DNA from: Teredinibacter turnerae T7901
GTDB taxonomy: Bacteria; Pseudomonadota; Gammaproteobacteria; Pseudomonadales; Cellvibrionaceae
Assembly (NCBI RefSeq): GCF_000023025.1
Contig: NC_012997.1
Coordinates: forward strand, 1,410,764-1,474,763
DNA length: 64,000 nucleotides
Reading direction: 5' to 3'
Shown here: positions 28,921 to 58,170 of the stretch, in pieces
Position numbering within the stretch: position 1 is the stretch's first letter
Layout: every line of letters starts with the position of its first letter
Made by a program: the position numbers and the translations under genes
Notes under the pieces: model-generated
What the model was told of the DNA's origin: nothing
Seen by the model: the letters and a program-made list of their open reading frames with translations, nothing else
Databases searched by the model: none

Positions 28921-28949
28921 CCCGCACGTAAACACGGGTGGTTTTTTTA
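28919..28949 (+). terminator. Possible terminator after cysD
   Basis: A short stem (ACCCG with CGGGT, 10-base loop) followed by GG and seven T bases lies right at the cysD stop. If it works, transcription would be reduced before cysN, which is unusual for this gene pair. Confidence 0.5.
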
Positions 28950-29325
28950 GATCGTGGCTTGCCGTCACTTCTGGGAACAGTCGCTTCGCGACTTGGCGGG
29001 AACGCAGCATGGCTGCTTCTGGGCAAGAGCGGGGCAATGAAAACTACCGTTAGTTTTTTGGCTTCAAGCGGCTGGTTCGATGGAGCCGAATTAGAAAGTT
29101 TTTAACCCGCAGTTAATCGCGGAAAGTTTGATGGAACCTGGCGTTGAGCCACTTTTAGGAACAGTTGTTTTGCGTATTTCGGGAATCCGACCCTGAGTTG
29201 CTTCCAGAAGTGAGTGAAGCGAACCTGCCCAGTAGTGCAGCGTTCCGAAAAGGCCAAAGGCCGTTCCCAGCAGCCATCGCCGAAGGGCGGCGGCGCTCCA
29301 AAAATTTTCGGAGAAAATTTTTATT
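28950..29325 (+). repeat. Mosaic hairpin array between cysD and cysN
   Basis: This 376-base gap contains degenerate units of the window's mosaic repeat family, seen as CTTCTGGGAAC, GTCGCTTCGCGAC, CTTCTGGGCAAG and, in the other orientation, GCGTTCCG, GGCCAAAGGCC and GTTCCCAGCAG. The copies at 28965-29030 and 29225-29325 are clearest. No gene is supported here; a 60-codon open frame at 29165 consists of array sequence. Confidence 0.75.
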
Positions 29326-33460: not shown

Positions 33461-34650
33461 TGTTTATGTCCGACCCAATCGTCTTTGTTCTATTGTTTGC
33501 TGCCCTGGCAATAGGGTTCTCGTTAGGACGGCTGTCTCGCGGGCCCGGTCGCCTGCCGCAGCAGCAATCGTCCAGCTGGTTGAAGCGTAATTATTATGTT
33601 GGCCTTAACCAGTTGCTCAACGATGAGCCGGACGCCGCTGTCGATACCTTCATCAGCTCGCTGGAGGTCAACAGCGAAACGCTAGAGACGCATCTCGCGT
33701 TGGGCGCTTTGCTTCGTCGCCGGGGTGAAACTGCGCGGGCAATACGTGTCCATCAAAATCTGTTGGCGCGTCCAAGTCTGCCGCGCCCGCAATTGCAATT
33801 GGCCCAACTGGAACTGGGTGTTGATTTCCTTAAAGCGGGTTTGCTGGACAGGGCCGAGACTCTCTTCAAAGAGCTGGCAGACGCCAAATACACCGAAAAA
33901 AAAGTTCGCGAAAAAGCCCTGATCTACTTGGTGGAGTTATACCGGGAAACCAGTGACTGGCTCGATGCAATAGATGTTGCAGATCGCCTTACCAGCCGAA
34001 AATTCAGTTCCACTGCAGATAACTGGCGCGAGATGCAGGCGCACTTCAGCTGCGAGTTGGCCGAGAAAGCGCTGGCTAACAACCAGGTACTGGAAGCGCG
34101 TCGCCTGCTGCGCAATGCACAGCGTTTTGACAAACAGTGCGCCCGCGCTCAGCTAATGCAGGCGCAGATCGAACTCAACGATGGCGCCGCTGCTGCTGCA
34201 CTTGGCATTCTTAAAAAGCTTCCCTACCAAAGTCCCCAGGTTATTTCTGAAGCCTTACCCCTCATGCGCGAATGCTATATCGCATTAAAGAGCGACCGCG
34301 ACTATCTTCAACTGCTTAACGATATTCATTTGGCGCAACCCAGCCTTATGCTTCTGTGGCACCTGACCTGTGCCACGGAGAAGCTGAACGGCCCAGAGGA
34401 TGCCTGCCGCGTATTGTACGAAGGAATTGCCCAGTACCCGGAAATGGTCGCTGTCCAAACCCTCCTCACCCTGTGCACCGCACAACCTGCCAGCGAACAG
34501 ATCCCCTACGAAAAGCTCAAGCCCGCCATCACTCAAATTTTAGATAACTATTTCTTCTATATATGCACCACCTGCGGTTTCACCGCACAAGCCAATCACT
34601 GGCTCTGCCCGAGCTGTCGGAGTTGGGGGAAAATGGGGATGGCAGAGTGA
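33460..34650 (+). CDS. lapB: Lipopolysaccharide assembly protein LapB
   Basis: Adaptor that directs LpxC to FtsH and so controls LPS amount. An N-terminal membrane helix (FVLLFAALAIGFSLG) is followed by about eight TPR units over residues 60-340, and a C-terminal rubredoxin-like zinc site with CTTCGF and CPSCRSWG. The first codon may be GTG at 33460, one base into the lapA stop, or ATG at 33466. The length of 396 is close to the E. coli protein. A mosaic array starts directly after the stop. Confidence 0.94.
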   Translation: MFMSDPIVFVLLFAALAIGFSLGRLSRGPGRLPQQQSSSWLKRNYYVGLNQLLNDEPDAAVDTFISSLEVNSETLETHLALGALLRRRGETARAIRVHQNLLARPSLPRPQLQLAQLELGVDFLKAGLLDRAETLFKELADAKYTEKKVREKALIYLVELYRETSDWLDAIDVADRLTSRKFSSTADNWREMQAHFSCELAEKALANNQVLEARRLLRNAQRFDKQCARAQLMQAQIELNDGAAAAALGILKKLPYQSPQVISEALPLMRECYIALKSDRDYLQLLNDIHLAQPSLMLLWHLTCATEKLNGPEDACRVLYEGIAQYPEMVAVQTLLTLCTAQPASEQIPYEKLKPAITQILDNYFFYICTTCGFTAQANHWLCPSCRSWGKMGMAE

Positions 34651-35150
34651 GCCCGCTGGCGCGGGCGGAACGTTTCGCTTCGCTACACTGCTGGGGCGTG
34701 GCCGTTGGCCACATTGGGGAACGCGGTCTGCGCCCGCTTCTGGGACGGGAGCTGCGCTCCCTGCTAGGAAAAGCCAAAAGTTTTCCAAACCTAGAAGGGC
34801 GAAGCCCGTTCCCAGAAGTCCACGCAGTGGACGTTCCCCGAAGCGGCTTTGCCTCGCCCCAGAAGGGCGCCTGCGCCCGTTCCCAGAAGTCCACGCAGTG
34901 GACGTTCCCCGAAGCGGCCTCGCCGCGTCCCAGAAGGGCGCTTGCCGCCCGTTCCCAGAAGTCCGCGCAGCGGACGTTCCCCAAAGCGGCCTCGCCGCGT
35001 CTCCCAGAAGGGCGCCTGCGCCCGTTCCCAGAAGTCAACGCAGTGGACGTTCCCCGAAGCGGCTTTACCGCGCCCCAGAAGGGCGCTTGGCGCCCGTTCC
35101 CCGAAACCACGCGCTTCGCGCGTAATCCCCCCTTGATCCCAGCGCAATAA
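34651..35150 (+). repeat. Mosaic hairpin array between lapB and rpsA
   Basis: The densest array in the window. Linkers of the form GTTCCCAGAAG or GTTCCCCGAAG alternate with short inverted repeats such as TCCACGCAGTGGA, GGGCGCCTGCGCCC and GCGGCCTCGCCGC. From 34795 to 35100 the pattern makes five tandem blocks of about 70 bases, each with a TCC-type word, a GCGGC-type word and a GGGCGC-type word. The open frames over it on both strands (up to 261 codons) are products of the repeats. The array starts within ten bases of the lapB stop and ends about 125 bases before rpsA. Confidence 0.93.
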
Positions 35151-35273
35151 CCTGTTACCTTCGCGCCCCTAAAATTCCACCCGAACCGGCTGTCAGCCAG
35201 AAATTCAGCGGTTTTCGGTATTCGCAAACAGACCCACATACTGGCGTGTGGTGTATTTCTTACAGGTAGCGCA

Positions 35274-36956
35274 ATGAGCGAAAGCTTTGCAGAACTCTTT
35301 GAAGAGAGCTTACAAACGATAGATATGGTGCCAGGCACCATCGTAACCGGTGTTGTTATCGACATCGACCAAGATTGGGTAACTGTTCACGCAGGTCTCA
35401 AGTCTGAAGGCGTTATTCCCGCCGCACAATTCCTTAACGAAAAAGGCGAACTCGACCTCAGTATCGGTGACGAAGTTCAAGTCGCTCTGGAAACCGTAGA
35501 AGATGGTTTCGGTGAAACTCGCCTTTCTCGCGAAAAAGCCAAGCGTGCAGAGTCCTGGAAAGTTCTGGAAGCTGCTCACGAGTCTGAAGAAGTTATTACT
35601 GGTGTTATTAACGGCAAGGTTAAAGGTGGTTTCACTGTTGACGTTGCTGGCATTCGCGCGTTCTTGCCGGGCTCTCTGGTCGACGTACGTCCTGTACGTG
35701 AAACGACTCACCTGGAAGGCAAAGAGCTCGAGTTCAAAGTTATCAAGCTGGACCAAAAACGCAACAACGTGGTTGTATCCCGTCGTGCGGTTATGGAGCA
35801 AACCAACACTGAAGAGCGCGAAGAGCTGCTCGCTACTCTGCAAGAAGGTCAGGCAGTTAAAGGTATCGTTAAGAACCTTACCGATTACGGTGCCTTCGTT
35901 GACCTGGGCGGCGTAGACGGTCTGTTGCACATCACCGACATGGCTTGGAAGCGTATCAAGCATCCGAGCGAAATCGTTGCTGTTGGCGATGAAATCGAAG
36001 TTAAAGTGCTCAAGTTCGACCGCGAGCGCAACCGTGTTTCTCTTGGCCTCAAGCAATTGGGCGAAGATCCATGGGCCGCTATCACGCAGCGTTACCCAGA
36101 AGGTGCCAAGGTTAAAGCCACCATCACCAACCTTACCGACTACGGCTGTTTCGCTGAAATCGAAGAAGGTGTTGAAGGTCTGGTACACGTTTCCGAAATG
36201 GATTGGACCAACAAAAACATCCACCCAAGCAAGGTTGTAAACCTGGGCGACGAAGTGGAAGTGATGATTCTGGATATCGACGAAGAGCGTCGTCGTATTT
36301 CTCTGGGTATCAAGCAGTGTCAAGAAAATCCGTGGGATGCGTTCTCTAACCAGTACGCGAAAGGCGACAAGATCACCGGCAAAATCAAGTCGATCACCGA
36401 CTTCGGTATCTTCATCGGCCTGGAAGGCGGTATTGATGGTCTGGTTCACCTGTCTGACATCAGCTGGAACGAAGCTGGCGAAGAAGCCGTACGCAAGTAC
36501 AAGAAAGGCGACGAGCTGGAAACCGTTGTACTGGCAATTGATCCAGAGCGCGAGCGTATCTCCCTGGGTATCAAGCAGCTGGACGAAGATCCGTTCTCCG
36601 TATACGTAACCAACAACGATAAAGGCTCCATCGTTAACGGTACCGTTAAAACTGTTGACGCTAAAGAAGCGGTAATCGCTCTGGCCGACGACGTTGAAGG
36701 TACTCTGAAAGCCTCTGAAATCAGCCGCGACAAGGTGGAAGATGCCCGCAACGCGCTGAAAGAAGGCGACGACGTAGAAGCCAAAATCACCAACGTTGAC
36801 CGTAAAAATCGTACGATCATCCTCAGCATCAAAGCCAAGGATTCAGACGACGAGAAGCAAGCGATCAAAGACCACAGCGCCAAGCAAGCAGAAATTGCAG
36901 CTCCTACTACGCTGGGCGACCTGATCAAAGCAGAAATGCAATCCAAAGAAAAATAA
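35274..36956 (+). CDS. rpsA: 30S ribosomal protein S1
   Basis: RNA-binding ribosomal protein that helps to load messages. The 560 residues contain six S1 domains, each with the pattern G-x-V-x-x-x-x-D-Y/F-G-x-F-V ([24 protein letters not shown] in domain 3, split by a conserved turn). Codon use is strongly biased (GAA, GGT, CGT, AAC), as expected for a highly expressed gene and unlike the neighbouring repeats. A GGTAG site precedes the ATG. It is followed by a strong terminator. Confidence 0.98.
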
Positions 36957-36988
36957 GAGCAAGCGCGAATAGCGCTTCTCTAATTTCG

Positions 36989-37026
36989 AAAACCGACAAT
37001 CTCGAAAGGGGTTGTCGGTTTTTTTT
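36989..37026 (+). terminator. Intrinsic terminator of rpsA
   Basis: An 11-base perfect stem (AAAACCGACAA with TTGTCGGTTTT) and a 12-base loop end in eight T bases. It lies 33 bases after the rpsA stop. Confidence 0.93.
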
Positions 37027-37038
37027 AGGGAAAAAAAA

Positions 37039-37199
37039 GCGCTCGCTTTGCGTCGCGCCTGGGGACGCTGCGCTGCTGGGAACGCTTTGCTTCTGGGGCG
37101 CCGCTGGTGGCGGCTGCTGGGAACGGGCTTCGCCCTTCTGGGGAGAGAAAACCTTCGGCTGGCTTATGATTTGACTGGGCAGCTGATGAGTTTAGGTGG
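37039..37199 (+). repeat. Mosaic array, left copy before S23 pseudogene
   Basis: Units in the CTGCTGGGAACG/CTTCTGGGG orientation, with words CGCTGCG, GCCGCTGGTGGCGGC and GGGCTTCGCCC, followed by CCTTCGGCTGG, CTTATGATTTGACT and a short tail. The stretch 37098-37190 is almost the exact reverse complement of 38217-38307, on the other side of the S23 genes, and is repeated in direct orientation at 37590-37690. Confidence 0.88.
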
Positions 37200-37305
37200 T
37201 CGAAGAGGGTTTGGCGGTTGGGGTTGTATGACAGCTTCAGTGTAAGTGCCCTAGTTGCGGAGCTAAGAGGAGCGTTCTTAACTTGCCATGGAAAAGGGAT
37301 TTTCG

Positions 37306-37531
37306 ATGAAGTTCAAAAAACTGGATGTTTGGAAGGAGAGCGCGCGTTTGTGCGTCGAGGTGTACAAAAACCTTGGCACTCTGCGGGATTACGGCTTTCG
37401 AGATCAGATTACTCGCTCCGCCCTCTCAATACCGTCAAATATCGCCAAAGGTTCATGCGCAGAAATATCATCCAGATATACATAGGGGGCGAGATTGGTT
37501 TTGAGGAAGAGGAACTTGGTAAATTTGGGGC
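37306..37531 (+). pseudogene. Broken S23/four-helix-bundle gene
   Basis: The first 44 codons match the intact copy at 37799 almost perfectly (MKFKKLDVWKESARL ... SIPSNIA). Then 54 bases present in the intact gene, between two copies of AATATCGC (37931 and 37985), are missing here. That loss keeps the frame. A further one-base loss near 37465 shifts the frame and brings a stop at 37485. Similarity in the shifted frame continues (GEIGFEEEELGK) to about 37531, where array sequence begins. The 5' flank (GTTGCGGAGC ... GGGATTTTCG) is duplicated too. Confidence 0.85.
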
Positions 37532-37534
37532 GTT

Positions 37535-37700
37535 GCGCTTATTAGGAACGCTTGCTTTGCTGCGCTGCTGGGAGCGCTTCGCTTCTGGGGGCGCCGCCCT
37601 TGGCGGCTGCTGGGAACGGGCTTCGCCCTGCTGGGGAGGGGGAGCCTTCGGCCGCCTTATGATTTGACTTGGTAGGGCAGAGCTGGGGTAGGTAGGAGAG
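37535..37700 (+). repeat. Mosaic array between the two S23 copies
   Basis: Direct-orientation near-copy of the array at 37039-37199, with CTGCTGGGAACG linkers, the words GCCGCCCTTGGCGGC and GGGCTTCGCCC, CCTTCGGCCG and CTTATGATTTGACTT. It shows that array and gene were duplicated together as one unit of roughly 500 bases. Confidence 0.88.
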
Positions 37701-37798
37701 GTTTGTCGGTTTAGGCGTTATGATGGATCGCAAATCATGCGCCCCAGTTGCGGAGCAAAGTGGGGCGCTCTCAACTTGCCATAGGAAAGGGATTTTCG

Positions 37799-38158
37799 AT
37801 GAAGTTCAAAAAACTGGATGTTTGGAAGGAGAGTGCGCGTTTGTGTGTCGAAGTGTACAAAAATCTTGGCACTCTGCGGGATTACGGCTTTCGAGATCAG
37901 ATTACTCGCTCCGCTCTCTCTATACCGTCAAATATCGCGGAGGGAGAGGAGCGGGAAAGCCTCAAAGACTCCATAAGGTTTCTTAATATCGCCAAAGGCT
38001 CAACCGCAGAATTGATCACCCAGATATACATAGGGATCGAAATTGGATATGTGGAACAAGCGCTTGGCAAAGACCTGCTCAATAAAGCGACGACTATTTC
38101 ACACCAACTCGGCGCCTTGATCAGAGCAAGAAAAAAACGGAACACAAACCAAAGCTAA
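37799..38158 (+). CDS. S23/four-helix-bundle protein
   Basis: 119 residues of the family first found in 23S rRNA intervening sequences, which fold as a four-helix bundle and form pentamers; the cellular role is not established. The family start KFKKLDVWKESARLCVEVYK, the central RDQITRSALSIPSNIAEG and the Arg-rich second helix are plain. I start at the ATG at 37799, which is conserved in the broken copy; an ATG at 37748 would add 17 residues. A GGAAAGG stretch precedes it. No 23S rRNA and no reverse transcriptase is nearby, so it is neither in an rRNA nor a diversity-generating element here. Mosaic arrays lie on both sides in inverted orientation. Confidence 0.85.
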   Translation: MKFKKLDVWKESARLCVEVYKNLGTLRDYGFRDQITRSALSIPSNIAEGEERESLKDSIRFLNIAKGSTAELITQIYIGIEIGYVEQALGKDLLNKATTISHQLGALIRARKKRNTNQS

Positions 38159-38514
38159 CCCACCAGCGCAGCCCCCCCAGAAGCCCCACCAGCGCGGGGC
38201 GCTCCACAACACTAACCATCACCTACCTAGCCAAATCATAAGTCAGCCGAAGGTTTTCTCTCCCAACAGGGCAAAGCCCGTTCCCAGCAGCCGCCACCGG
38301 CGGCGCCCTCAAAGCGACCAACGGAAGCGCCCCAGAAGCCCCGCGATGCGGGGTGTTCCACAACCCTAACCATCACCTACCCAGCCAAATCAAAAGATAC
38401 CCAAAGCTTTCCCTCCCCAGCAGGGCGAAGCCCGTTCCCAGAAGCCGCCACCGGCGGCGCCCCCAAAGCGACCAACGGAAGCGCCCCAGAAGCCCCGCCG
38501 TGCGGGGCGTTCCG
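38159..38514 (+). repeat. Mosaic array, inverted right copies after S23 gene
   Basis: Two tandem blocks, about 154 bases apart, each run from CATCACCTAC (38217 and 38371) through AGCCAAATCA, an optional CAGCCGAAGG, CAGGGC-AAGCCCGTTCCCAG and GCCGCCACCGGCGGC, then CAAAGCGACCAACGGAAGC. The first block is the near-exact reverse complement of the left arrays at 37098 and 37590. The last words, GCCCCGCCGTGCGGGGC and GTTCCGC, run into the terminator-like hairpin at 38515. Confidence 0.88.
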
Positions 38515-38547
38515 CAACAAAAACTGGCGAAACGCCAGTTTTTGTTG
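38515..38547 (+). terminator. Long perfect hairpin upstream of ihfB
   Basis: A 15-base perfect stem (CAACAAAAACTGGCG with CGCCAGTTTTTGTTG) has a three-base AAA loop. The A and T runs are inside the stem, so it can terminate in either direction. It closes the S23 module and separates it from ihfB. Confidence 0.8.
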
Positions 38548-38689
38548 TATAAACAACAACTTAACCAAAAAAAGTAGCAAATACATTTACAGATTGCGCT
38601 AACACAATGATATTACCCAACTTTTGGACTAATATCTGGTTAGCTCGAACTGCGGCGCAGGTACCAACGCGCCTTGGTTGATAAAGTCG

Positions 38690-38720
38690 CCAAACCTGTG
38701 GGTAACATTTTCAGGTTTGG
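38690..38720 (+). promoter_or_regulatory. Hairpin in the ihfB leader
   Basis: A 9-base perfect stem (CCAAACCTG with CAGGTTTGG) and a 13-base loop lie 72 bases before the ihfB ATG. It could be a leader structure or a weak terminator. I see no other defined element in 38548-38791. Confidence 0.3.
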
Positions 38721-38791
38721 GCTTTGCTCCCTTGCGGGCGGCAGCGGTTATTCGCTAACTTTTCTTCACCACTCAAGCTTGGCCAAATCCT

Positions 38792-39088
38792 ATGACAAAG
38801 TCAGAGCTGATAGAACGCATCGCTGAAAGGCAGGACCAACTCTCCGCAAAGGACATTGAGTTGGCGGTAAAGCTTATTCTTGAGTATATGTCCCAATGCC
38901 TGGCCAACGGCGATCGCATCGAAATCCGCGGCTTTGGCAGTTTCTCACTTCACTATCGTGCGCCGCGTACAGGCCGCAACCCTAAAACCGGTGAATCTGT
39001 CGAGCTGGAAGGTAAGTTTGTTCCCCACTTCAAGCCCGGTAAAGAAATGCGCGACCGTGTAAACGAGAGCCTGGAAGAGTTGCCATAA
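38792..39088 (+). CDS. ihfB: Integration host factor subunit beta
   Basis: DNA-bending HU/IHF-family protein. The 98 residues begin [17 protein letters not shown] and contain [20 protein letters not shown] broken at the usual arm, [12 protein letters not shown] and [14 protein letters not shown], as in IhfB. No convincing Shine-Dalgarno sequence precedes the ATG. The order rpsA-ihfB is conserved in gammaproteobacteria, but here the S23 module and 1.8 kb lie between them. Confidence 0.97.
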
Positions 39089-39799
39089 CATCCCTGCACG
39101 GCCAGCCCACGCTGGTTATCGCCTTTTGTTTTCAGCCCAACCATCGAAAGCCGCAGATCGCGATTTAGTTGCTCGCGTATGAGGTTGTTTGAGCGGTAGC
39201 GCGTAATTGATTTTCCCATTTTAGAATTTCCTGCGAGTCAACGCATGATGTGAGGGTATGCGGCGCTGTTTTCATTTTAGCTGGCCGAGCAGAAAGCGGC
39301 ATTTCTAAATCGACTCTGTAAATTTGTTCGGCAATAAATGGCGCGTTTTACGGGAAATATGGGTTAACAAACGAGTGTCGCGGTAAATTCGGCACCCGGT
39401 GGTGCAAACCCAAGCCAGTTTGGTCGTTTATTGAGCGAATATTCGCCAGCGCGCTGGCATGTTAAATGTATTTTTGTTGTGTCGGAAAATTGGCCGGAAA
39501 AATTTTTAAATTGTCCTGCGCATCTTGGCCGTTATCTTAAGCAGCTTAAATTTCACTCTGTTTTAGGGGCGCGCTGTCAAGAGAACAAGACAAACCGTTC
39601 CCTATAAAACCGACAAACGGGCAGGTGTATCGATAAAAATCTGGAGTTTGAAGTGGTGCTGGCAATGGCGAGCAAGCAGTAAATTAAAGCTGCATAAGAG
39701 CAGGCTAGCGAGTTAAGCAAAATCACAAGCTCAGGTTGGGGATATTACACTTTGCGAACAACACAACTTGTAGTCATTGCTTTATAATCCCCGCAAATT
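39089..39799 (+). other. 711-base gap before the polysaccharide locus
   Basis: No gene is convincing here. A minus-strand open frame starting at the ATG at 39219 (MGKSITRYRSNNLIREQL) has AGGA before it but runs into ihfB, so only its first 40 codons are free; it may be a remnant. GCGAATATTCGC (39435-39446) and GCCAGCGCGCTGGC (39445-39458) are two overlapping perfect palindromes. AGCGGTAGCGCG at 39192 resembles the core of the RfaH-recruiting ops element but is 600 bases before manC. The long leader would suit a regulated polysaccharide promoter. Confidence 0.45.
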
Positions 39800-54699: not shown

Positions 54700-55010
54700 G
54701 CGCTGAGGGGACCAATTCTTGCGAATTGGTGGAACGTTGGACCAATTCGTTTGAATTGGTGGTGCGCTGGACTTTGTCCAGCTAATGGGGGCGTGGCCTT
54801 TGGCCACTTTGGGGAACGCGGTCTGCGCCCGCTTCTGGGAACACTCGCTCTGCTCGCTTCTTGGTTTTCCTAGGAGCGAAGCGTTCCCAGCAGCGCAGCG
54901 TTCCGGCAACGGCCTCCGGCCGTGCCCCCAAGCTCCCCCTGGGGAGCGCCCCAGCAGTGGAGCGTAGCGGAACGTTCCAGCGAGGCCAAAGCCTCGCTTC
55001 CCCCGCTTTT
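54700..55010 (+). repeat. Mosaic array before the beta-CASP gene (copy F)
   Basis: Begins with CCAATTCTTGCGAATTGG and GGACCAATTCG hairpins, then GCTGGACTTTGTCCAGC, GTGGCCTTTGGCCAC, GCGGTCTGCGCCCGC, a CTCGCTCTGCTCGC word, GGAGCGAAGCG, GGCCTCCGGCC and GAGGCCAAAGCCTC, joined by GTTCC-CAGCAG and TTCTGGGAAC linkers. It shares about 270 bases, almost unbroken and in the same direction, with the array at 57511. Confidence 0.9.
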
Positions 55011-55026
55011 TATAAAAAGGACTTTT

Positions 55027-56424
55027 ATGAAAACTCAAAAACTAGTTAAACACCCATACCCTAAATTTGAACATCACGGCGCTTTGTCTGGTGTTACTGG
55101 CAGTTGTCATCGTTATATTGCGTCACCGTCAAACCACTTTCTGATCGATTGCGGGCTTTTCCAGGGGGAGGAGGGGGCCGGTGGCGACGGTAGCCAGCAT
55201 GAGATTGATTTCGATATATCCCAAGTGCGTGGCCTAATCGTTACCCATGTGCATATCGATCATGTCGGGCGTATTCCTTATTTACTGGCCGCGGGGTTTA
55301 GCGGGCCTATTTATACTTCTATTCCCTCGGCGCGGCTGTTGCCGCTGGTTATTGAGGATGCATTAAAAGTCGGTTTTACCCGGGATTCTCGGTTAATCGA
55401 GCGATTTCTGGCAAAGGTGGGCGGAATGTTGCGGCCACTGGATTACGGAACCTGGCTCCCGCTGGTGGAAAGCGAAAGCTGCACATTGCGACTTAAGCTG
55501 CAGCGCGCGGGTCATATACTCGGCTCCGCTTACGTTGAATTAGATGCAAAATACCCTGACTACACTCATCGTACCGTTTTTTCCGGAGATTTGGGCGCGC
55601 CTTATGCGCCTCTGTTGCCTGCACCGCGATCACCCTATCGCGCCGATACCTTGGTTCTCGAAAGCACCTACGGCAACAAACAGCATGAAAGCCGCGCCAA
55701 GCGTAAACAACGGTTGTTTGCCGCCTTAGAGCGCGCGTTTGAGAATGGGGGAACGGTGTTGATTCCCGCGTTCAGTATCGGTCGTACCCAGGAGTTGCTC
55801 TACGAACTGGAATCGATCATTTCTGCCGAGAAGGCGCGGTGGGGGAATCTTGAAGTGATTGTTGATTCGCCATTGGCTGCAAAATTCACGGAGGTTTATC
55901 GGGAGCTTAAACCTTATTGGGATGCGGAAGCTCAACGCAGACTCCGGCAGGGGAGGCACCCATTGAGCTTTGATAACCTTTATACGGTGGGCTCGCACGA
56001 AGAACACCTGCGGACGGTTGAATACCTGGCAGACAGTGCGCGCCCGACGGTGGTGATCGCCGCGAGTGGTATGCTCAACGGCGGTCGCAGCCTCAACTAC
56101 GCCAAGGCACTTATTGAGAACTCCCGCCATGCGATTCTATTTGTCGGTTATCAGGCGCGTGGCACTATTGGCAGTTCGATTCAGCACTACGGCGCCAAGG
56201 AGGGCGGGTGGGTGATGATCGACGGTCAACGCTATGCCATTAACGCCCAAGTGCTCACCATCGGCGGATACAGCGCCCACGCCGACCAGAAAAATCTGCT
56301 CAATTTTGTAAAACGTACCCGCATAGGCCCCACCCAAATCCGCCTGATCCACGGCGAACCCGATGCTAAAAAGGTATTGGGAAAGAAGTTGGAGGAAATG
56401 ATTAAGGGGGTAGAGGTGTTTTAG
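55027..56424 (+). CDS. Beta-CASP metallo-beta-lactamase-fold hydrolase (CPSF-like)
   Basis: 465 residues from the ATG at 55027, with AAAAAGGAC before it; an open frame upstream is array sequence. Zinc motifs are HVHIDHVGRIP near residue 75, HILGSAYVEL near 160, GDLGAPYAP near 185 and the C-terminal SAHADQKN near 417. The beta-CASP region holds ESTYGNKQHESR and the IVDSPLAAKFTEVY stretch (near 276), plus GMLNGGRS. Relatives cut RNA, as endonucleases or 5'-exonucleases, but the bacterial group is poorly characterised. It lies alone between two mosaic arrays. Confidence 0.88.
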   Translation: MKTQKLVKHPYPKFEHHGALSGVTGSCHRYIASPSNHFLIDCGLFQGEEGAGGDGSQHEIDFDISQVRGLIVTHVHIDHVGRIPYLLAAGFSGPIYTSIPSARLLPLVIEDALKVGFTRDSRLIERFLAKVGGMLRPLDYGTWLPLVESESCTLRLKLQRAGHILGSAYVELDAKYPDYTHRTVFSGDLGAPYAPLLPAPRSPYRADTLVLESTYGNKQHESRAKRKQRLFAALERAFENGGTVLIPAFSIGRTQELLYELESIISAEKARWGNLEVIVDSPLAAKFTEVYRELKPYWDAEAQRRLRQGRHPLSFDNLYTVGSHEEHLRTVEYLADSARPTVVIAASGMLNGGRSLNYAKALIENSRHAILFVGYQARGTIGSSIQHYGAKEGGWVMIDGQRYAINAQVLTIGGYSAHADQKNLLNFVKRTRIGPTQIRLIHGEPDAKKVLGKKLEEMIKGVEVF

Positions 56425-56429
56425 CAATC

Positions 56430-56850
56430 TCAGGGGGCCAATTCTTTCGAATTGGCGGAGCGCTGGACTTCGTCCAGCTGCTGGGAGTGTGGCCTTTGGC
56501 CACTTTGGGGAACGCGGTCTGCGCCCGCTTCTAGGAACGGGCTTCGCCCTGCTGGGAACCAAATGGTTTTACCCAGAAGCGTAGCGTTCCCAGTAGCGAC
56601 GCGTTCCAGCACGTGCCTTTGGCCGTGCTCCCCAAGCTCCCCTCCGGGGAGCGTCCCAGCAGTGAAGCAAAGCGGAACGTTCCAGCAAGGCCATAGCCTC
56701 GCCCCTCCCAGAAGCAAGCTTGCTTGCGTTCCCAGTAGCGAAGCGTTCCAGCAACGGCCTCTGGCCGTGCTCCCCAGGCTCCCCCTTGGGAGCGCCCCAG
56801 CAGTGAAGCGAAGCGGAACGTTCCAGCGGGCCGGAGGCCCGCTATCGTAT
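56430..56850 (+). repeat. Mosaic array between beta-CASP gene and mazEF (copy G)
   Basis: Starts 12 bases after the beta-CASP stop with CCAATTCTTTCGAATTGG, GCTGGACTTCGTCCAGC, GTGGCCTTTGGCCAC and GCGGTCTGCGCCCGC, the same order as copies F and H, then GGGCTTCGCCC, AAGCGTAGCGTTCC, GGCCTCTGGCC and GAGGCCATAGCCTC words with CAGCAG/CAGAAG linkers. The order of the later words differs from F and H, so parts have been shuffled. Confidence 0.9.
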
Positions 56851-57510: not shown

Positions 57511-58170
57511 ATCTGGAGACCAATTCTTTCGAATTGGTGGAACGCTGGACTTTGTCCAGCTAATGGGGGCGTGGCCTTTGGCCACTTTGGGGAACGCGGC
57601 CTGCGCCCGCTTCTGGGAACACTCGCTCTGCTCGCTTCTTGGCTTTCCTAGGAGCGAAGCGTTCCCTGCAGCGAAGCGTTCCAGCAGCGGCCTCCGGCCG
57701 TGCTCCCCAAGCTCCCTCGGGAGCTCCCCAGCAGTGAAGCGCAGCGGAACGTTCCAGCGAGGCCATAGCCTCGCCCCTCCCAGAAGCAAGCTTGCTTGCG
57801 TTCCCTGCAGCGAAGCGTTCCAGCAACGGCCTCCGGCCGTGCTCCCCAAGCTCCCTCGGGAGCGCCCTAGCAGTGAAGCGCAGCGGAACGTTCCAGCGTG
57901 GCTAAAGCCTCGCTCCACTCCCAGCAGCAAGCTTACTTGCGTTCCCAGCAGCGAAGCGTTCCAGCATCCGCCTCCGGCGGTGCTCCCCAAGCTCCCCCTG
58001 GGAGCGTCCCAGCAGTGAAGCGTAGCGGAACGCTCCAGCGAGGCCATCGCCTCGCTCACCCGGAACATTCATTGCTAGTAAAACCCGATGTCGGGCTTTG
58101 GGTGTTGGCGATAGTGGGGGTTCCAGAGGTGAAGCGTGGCGTAGCGTTCCAACGGTAGCCGCGGGCCGCG
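57511..58170 (+). repeat. Mosaic array between mazF and ugd (copy H)
   Basis: Starts within ten bases of the mazF stop, in the same order as copies F and G. It then repeats a block of about 170-190 bases three times (near 57680, 57810 and 57940), each with GGCCTCCGGCC or CGCCTCCGGCG, GGGAGC words, AGCGCAGCGG or AGCGTAGCGG, GAGGCCATAGCCTC or similar, and AAGCTTGCTTGCG. The tandem growth of this block is the clearest in the window. No gene is supported in 58171-58335 except the ugd leader. Confidence 0.92.

Follow-up and report, generated by a model that had tools for sequence, protein, structure and literature searches.

Single-gene S23 units with inverted repeat arms in several bacterial phyla suggest a little-noticed minimal element related to rRNA-gene inserts

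The closest described systems are the intervening sequences (IVSs) of 23S rRNA that carry an S23 ORF. In Coxiella, the IVS comprises an S23 ORF and complementary ends forming a 28-bp stem, is cleaved by RNase III in vitro, and harbors heptameric GACAGAT repeats; RNase III excision is published for such S23 IVSs, and the authors recall earlier ideas of transposition or of a mobile element (PMC4990558). In CPR bacteria, scattered insertions are found in 16S and 23S rRNA, some of them with 23S_rRNA_IVP (PMC11270868). Heptameric arrays have also been reported in other bacteria. Those of Xanthomonas and Nostoc are described as G-quadruplex repeats, and convergent heptamer pairs are frequent in Xanthomonas, with 70 and 75 cases (PMC4692102). 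In the available portions of that text, as in those of the description of TAACTGA repeats in Beggiatoaceae (PMC4679880), the word S23 does not occur. One further candidate precedent, PMC5041132, was discarded: as far as the available part of the article goes, the insertion it treats is in 16S, and "S23" there is the number of a figure.

The protein family itself extends to other systems. The Avd protein of diversity-generating retroelements resembles PF05635, the family to which S23 belongs, and displays a four-helix fold (PMC10053308). Structures of S23 relatives have been solved (2gsc, 2rld). In one genome of 1.54 Mb (G488), ten near-identical cassettes (L462-L471, core 99.7-100%) possess an S23-like ORF (PF05635, 31-34 bits) followed by an apparent reverse transcriptase. 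This cassette looks like an amplified diversity-generating retroelement of the Avd type, and, because its copies adjoin the apparent reverse transcriptase, they are left out of the S23-unit evidence. Among repeats, REP/REPIN sequences with RAYT transposases consist of palindromic repeats paired in inverted orientation, and a gene may or may not lie between the two.

The locus described here lies in the window, a stretch of 64,000 nucleotides from Teredinibacter turnerae T7901. Its features are the following, the names of neighbouring genes being, here and in all other genomes, read off the sequence or taken from an earlier note on this DNA.

35274..36956, + strand: left neighbour, rpsA-type ORF
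37050..37190, + strand: left array, copy 1; hairpin units with CTGGG separators in forward orientation
37306..37485, + strand: broken S23 copy, 59 aa remaining, with a 54-nt deletion and a frame change; PF05635 E 1.5e-13
37543..37690, + strand: left array, copy 2; hairpin array 493 nt downstream of left copy 1
37799..38158, + strand: intact S23 gene, 119 aa; PF05635 E 2.9e-31 (37799-38155)
38160..38347, - strand: right array, copy 1; hairpin array in reverse orientation
38348..38501, - strand: right array, copy 2; 154-nt tandem repeat of right copy 1, 87%
38792..39088, + strand: right neighbour, ihfB-type ORF

From rpsA to ihfB, the order is a left array, the broken S23 copy, a second left array, the intact S23 gene, and two tandem right arrays. 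The S23 gene matches PF05635 only in Pfam, and no transposase-type gene is found inside the unit. In NCBIfam, its matches are hypothetical or four-helix-bundle families only, with TIGR02436 ("four helix bundle protein") at 104.9 bits. The earlier note had the gene span 37531-38158; the gene is confirmed by PF05635, but its ATG lies at 37799, and the longer span takes in the second left array. The broken copy that the note placed ahead of it is indeed an S23 fragment, in which the 54-nt deletion is flanked by a short direct repeat and a 1-nt frame change comes soon after. No rRNA match is found within 34000-39500 of the window, the unit sitting between the rpsA- and ihfB-type ORFs, outside rRNA.

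The arms are hairpin mosaics with CTGGG separators, not heptamers, and the claim that they match in inverted orientation around the gene is borne out. Positions 37096-37188 match 38217-38308 at 89% identity (E 5.8e-27), and the matched stretch contains the non-palindromic CTTATGATTTGACT, as had been asserted. In local alignment with the reverse complement of the right flank, left flank 1 agrees at 92/105 positions (score 137, against 35 for the best of 500 shuffles and 14 on the same strand) and left flank 2 at 83/98 positions (score 117, against 29 for the best of 500 shuffles and 17 on the same strand). The separators occur in forward orientation only (xTCTGGG/xGCTGGG) in the left arrays and in reverse orientation only in the right arrays. 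A left array and gene duplicated as one unit of about 500 bases had been proposed, and a direct duplication is found on the left side, comprising 198 nt at 93% and 88 nt at 86%, each at 493-nt spacing. The right array, however, is itself a tandem pair (38194-38347 and 38348-38501, 154 nt, 87%), so that the left unit is not the sole duplicated part. This local duplication could reflect unequal recombination, as the earlier note said. The genome (5,193,164 bases) holds two PF05635 matches only, both here in tandem, and no dispersed S23 copies.

The unit shares with REPINs the inverted pairing of palindromic repeats, also seen at five array-only places of the window (see below). It differs from them in what lies between: S23, the only Pfam match being PF05635, instead of a RAYT Y1 (HUH) transposase. 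With the S23-type IVS of Coxiella it has in common a lone S23 ORF, complementary ends, and a sporadic occurrence, but the IVS lies in rRNA and the window unit between protein genes; furthermore, the heptameric repeats beside the IVS ORF (PMC4990558) are replaced in the window by hairpin mosaics, 7-mer arms being found at other S23 loci. The CPR insertions involve the same protein family and are likewise scattered, but the available part of their description confines them to rRNA sites and leaves repeat arms undescribed (PMC11270868). The heptamers of Xanthomonas and Nostoc resemble S23 arms in their period of 7, their RG-bearing units, and their many convergent inverted pairs (PMC4692102). Avd acts with a reverse transcriptase (PMC10053308), whereas the ORFs adjoining the window unit read as rpsA and ihfB. 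No literature linking intercistronic S23 genes with inverted short-repeat arms was found in a search whose coverage left most subscription papers and bioRxiv preprints outside.

Close relatives differ in whether the unit occupies this site. Among eight genomes of the genus, S23 occupies the rpsA-ihfB gap in four (the window's genome, G136, G134, and G135) and is absent from it in four, giving empty sites of the kind envisaged in the earlier note; these gaps measure 244 nt (G137), 308 nt (G132, with an apparent array remnant), 440 nt (G133), and 3311 nt (G131). G136 carries a tandem S23 run, with four PF05635 matches in three stretches, and this run and the tandem pair of the window are the observed cases of amplification. 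In G134 and G135, the S23 gene lies on the opposite strand at this site. Partial decay is visible within the genus: a stop interrupts the G134 gene internally, and the last of the G136 copies is shortened. The metK-ahcY gap of another genus in the family measures 19 nt (G118) and 17 nt (G121) without S23, and 515 nt (G122) and 508 nt (G119) with it, the left arm then beginning directly after the metK stop; gap comparisons of this type were resolved in 14/20 loci. No target-site duplication was identified, the filled and empty gaps being too diverged for their ends to be read. PF05635 occurs in 28/144 genomes of the family and 77/369 of the class, 71 of the latter above the cut-off. No identical S23 copies stand at separate sites among 179 within-genome pairs, the best of which reaches 83% aa besides a tandem pair in G151. 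Two Calothrix plasmids were considered as an instance of S23 movement and rejected, S23 being shared there inside a longer common gene order. Of the mobile or amplifiable element proposed earlier, tandem amplification and presence or absence at a site are borne out, and self-driven movement is putative; neither a transposase in the unit, nor a target-site duplication in the diverged gaps, nor identical dispersed copies were found.

Other intergenic arrangements were seen along the way. The G131 gap (L140, ~3.3 kb) contains other palindromic repeats and an ORF that reads by eye as GIY-YIG-type. At L036 and L037 (G058 and G056), the S23 frame is broken at the conserved NIA|EG motif by a similar insert, whose stop falls at one and the same position in both genomes. 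At L029 (G129), the cysD-cysN gap holds, ahead of the S23 unit, a nucleotidyltransferase-like ORF that is itself preceded by short-repeat arrays.

Inverted arms recur around S23 genes in several phyla. At several loci of the family, S23 is placed inside a likely operon, with one of its genes on either side, and is enclosed by inverted tandem repeats (for example GGGACTC, GACGTTA, or AGGGAAA). To score this, the match between the two flanks of a locus was set against the 99th percentile of mispaired flanks. Every locus was oriented by its gene, because an unoriented mispaired control is contaminated by orthologous flanks of opposite-strand loci. Among 80 named loci, which are the best 80 of 585 relatives by similarity and of which 78 have flanks long enough, 38/78 pass in inverted and 7 in direct orientation. 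A second set comprises 87 distinct S23 loci of 20 genomes and three plasmid loci (88 usable of 90), drawn from a listing of 115 rows, some of them fragments, with weak rows excluded. Here 56/88 pass inverted and 11 direct, and flanks mispaired inside the same genome pass in 2.0%; as the 20 genomes were reached through the first set, the two have loci in common. In 30 of the best class-wide loci, 12/30 pass inverted and one direct, and a 7-mer arm is present in 25/30. S23 loci on viral contigs (19 usable of 22) give 7/19 inverted and one direct, with 7-mer arms in 14/19. S23 matches were also found in 19 plasmid records, and none in INPHARED phages. No rRNA was found near S23 at the 20 loci scanned for RNA families, the window's S23 locus included. 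The idea that the same inverted arrays flank other S23 genes needs amending: flanks are inverted within loci, above mispaired controls, but their sequence varies from locus to locus. On both points on which the earlier proposal had been staked beforehand, namely the arrays around other S23 genes and related genomes lacking the unit, the outcome favors a unit whose presence or absence is all-or-none, and the pattern seen more widely is strong.

The S23 genes sit in line with their neighbours. With a crude ORF caller, S23 and both neighbours are on one strand at 114/168 loci (the 168 of 186 with neighbours set), and the two neighbours are co-directional with each other at 126/168 loci, against 13/28 for HU genes. 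Values of dN/dS are low in a few close S23 pairs: they range from 0.05 to 0.20 in the 14 pairs where the ratio is defined, among the 25 listed closest pairs of 103, and dS is below 1 in only four of these (dN/dS 0.05, 0.06, 0.12, and 0.20). The window gene and a G136 copy are among the latter, with a dN/dS of 0.06. A tree of 80 S23 proteins mixes phyla, with 28 label changes for a minimum possible of 11 and a shuffled mean of 44.7; with 22/77 inner branches well supported, these counts are no proof of transfer. The window protein stands beside the verrucomicrobial L041 (57% identity, support 89/70, not starred).

The arms of S23 genes have a characteristic period. Pooled over the 80 named loci, base identity at lag 7 reaches.366 on the upstream side and.390 on the downstream side, compared with.263 for control stretches; lag 14 comes second, and other lags are not clearly raised. 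A wider survey covered 370 arms of 186 distinct loci (34 from the family, 85 named, and a further 67 that the 20 genomes and the plasmids contributed). At a score of at least 12, the best period is 7 in 105 arms, 14 in 21, 8 in 18, and 16 in 10, and control windows are best at period 7 in 6/284. At the chosen score, at least one 7-mer arm is found at 88/186 loci and none at 98/186. In the aligned register, an R is followed by a G (A.70, G.19; then G.90), with hardly any other conservation. This motif holds 2.88 bits, against at most 2.40 with positions permuted (15 permutations), and drops to 2.31 bits when the opposite strand is taken for the downstream arms; the RG strand thus points inward from either side. 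Neither 7-mers nor at least four short hairpins were found at 90/179 loci. Hairpin arms as a frequent second type were considered and rejected, since at least five hairpins in one flank occur at 5/179 loci only. Hairpin-like arms are found at a few other S23 loci (L042, L066, L030), with CTAG, CAGG, or CCTG separators by eye. The hairpin arms of the window look like a variant of the S23-unit arms, and may correspond to RG positions spaced by small hairpins.

Arms agree better within than between loci. The agreement of upstream and downstream 7-mer profiles is.683 within a locus (n=19) and.409 between loci (n=342). Between loci, it depends on S23 identity:.39-.44 below 60%,.611 at 60-75% (36 pairs), and.830 above 75% (six pairs). 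A deep coevolution of arms and S23 was not found, the correlation of r 0.141 (3/2000 permutations) falling to 0.050 without close pairs. Among same-genome S23 pairs 60-90% identical, an arm score of 34 is reached by 1/7, so that related S23 genes share arms only unreliably. In G159, the pairs L188/L193 (76% aa) and L192/L197 (83%) stand at separate places with arms alike by eye. These data would fit units inherited or moved whole, whose arms then change fast with spacing and polarity kept; arms made afresh at every site would fit too. When duplexes are computed, an arm's own partner beats all 12 GC-matched foreign arms in 72/179 loci, for 14 expected, a result that follows from the inverted repeats and is not independent evidence for pairing in the cell.

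Similar arms also exist apart from S23. GxxExxY genes (PF13366; L270-L297) possess inverted 8-9-mer arms, such as CGCAGAGG or CACAGAGA, and 16/26 of their loci in the 20 genomes pass at the threshold of the second S23 set. The arms being alike between GxxExxY loci, their own mispaired 99th percentile is 37, which at least 12/26 exceed; 12/26 also pass 29.8 in direct orientation. The architecture is consequently not unique to S23, and arms do not need S23. In the window itself, array pairs stand without S23 at five other places, with forward separators left of reverse ones in 5/5, as in the S23 unit:

28921-29325, no strand assigned: weaker array pair, between cysD- and cysN-type ORFs; also delimited as 28957..29310
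34651-35130, no strand assigned: array pair between a lapB-type ORF and rpsA; five forward-separator hits left, nine reverse right
54740-55030: hairpin array pair, forward separators left of reverse
56440-56740: hairpin array pair, forward separators left of reverse
57550-58000: hairpin array pair, forward separators left of reverse

Such pairs, the GxxExxY arms, the frequent convergent pairs of Xanthomonas (PMC4692102), and the G131 gap, where the same place is taken by another small gene and by palindromic repeats of another kind, all speak for S23 as a passenger. The array pairs would then be REP- or MITE-like, spreading by themselves or helped from elsewhere, S23 would be one of several small genes caught between them, and the tandem copies would stem from unequal recombination. 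We hold this to be unlikely, without dismissing it. In the same 20 genomes, inverted flanks are rare around other small genes: 1/30 loci pass for HU, the sole one (G160 C37) lying 258 nt from an S23 match, and 1/15 for short GIY-YIG genes (17 of 30 fetched loci were scored for the latter, and 27 of 30 for GxxExxY). Furthermore, CTTCTGGGARCG has six exact occurrences in the 5.19 Mb genome of the window, five of them in the S23 neighbourhood, which argues against a genome-wide REP as far as an exact pattern, blind to variants, can tell. An S23 gene resident in the host, with arms serving as local RNA structures for expression or operon separation, renewed by slippage and never mobile, would account for the in-line position between co-directional genes, for the low dN/dS of those few close pairs that are unsaturated, and for locus-specific arms whose computed duplexes favor their own partner. 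It accords badly with the patchy distribution in family and class, with filled and empty sites in close relatives, with the opposite orientation of S23 at the shared site in G134 and G135, and with the mixing of phyla in the weakly resolved protein tree; we consider it improbable. Least probable of all appears an ordinary DNA transposon, its arms being terminal inverted repeats on which a transposase encoded elsewhere would act in trans to move it. The terminal inverted arrays, the presence or absence at a site, and the related S23 genes with similar arms at separate G159 places would suit it, but the arms vary between loci of one genome, same-genome mispaired flanks passing in 2.0%, and no target-site duplication was identified between the diverged filled and empty gaps.

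On balance, we consider it probable that the window harbors a hairpin-armed member of a widespread class of minimal elements, each made of one S23 gene and two inverted short-repeat arrays placed in line between host genes, with pairing of the arms and their recognition by S23 as presumed parts of its working. By analogy with the S23 IVSs of 23S rRNA, the two arms may pair in the transcript; the unit would then ride on host transcription, and its neighbours would remain expressed. The S23 ring protein may recognize the RG positions that recur at regular intervals in the arms, and may help to keep or spread the unit; movement by the unit itself and this action of S23 are inferred. The arms would turn over quickly, with selection acting on their spacing and polarity, not on their exact sequence, and the tandem copies of the window would have been made by unequal exchange between arrays. 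A bolder proposal, which we offer tentatively and with more doubt than conviction, is that S23 and RG-repeat arms constitute minimal mobile elements across bacteria, without a recognizable transposase, in which one ring subunit per 7-nt unit binds RG and protects or moves the unit; the rRNA IVSs would be the case noticed first, and the GxxExxY 8-9-mer units a parallel class. The binding of TRAP to triplet repeats would be the model for an S23 ring on RG repeats.

Although S23 proteins are widely annotated, no function is assigned to them, and the rRNA IVSs that carry them are without an agreed origin. The architecture found outside rRNA, with its rule of spacing and polarity and its locus-specific arms, gives the proteins and the IVSs a common frame, in which the S23 IVS of 23S rRNA is best read as one case of a widespread minimal element. 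The function of S23 thereby becomes a testable question of binding, and some of the bacterial 7-nt repeat arrays may find in S23 their gene partner.
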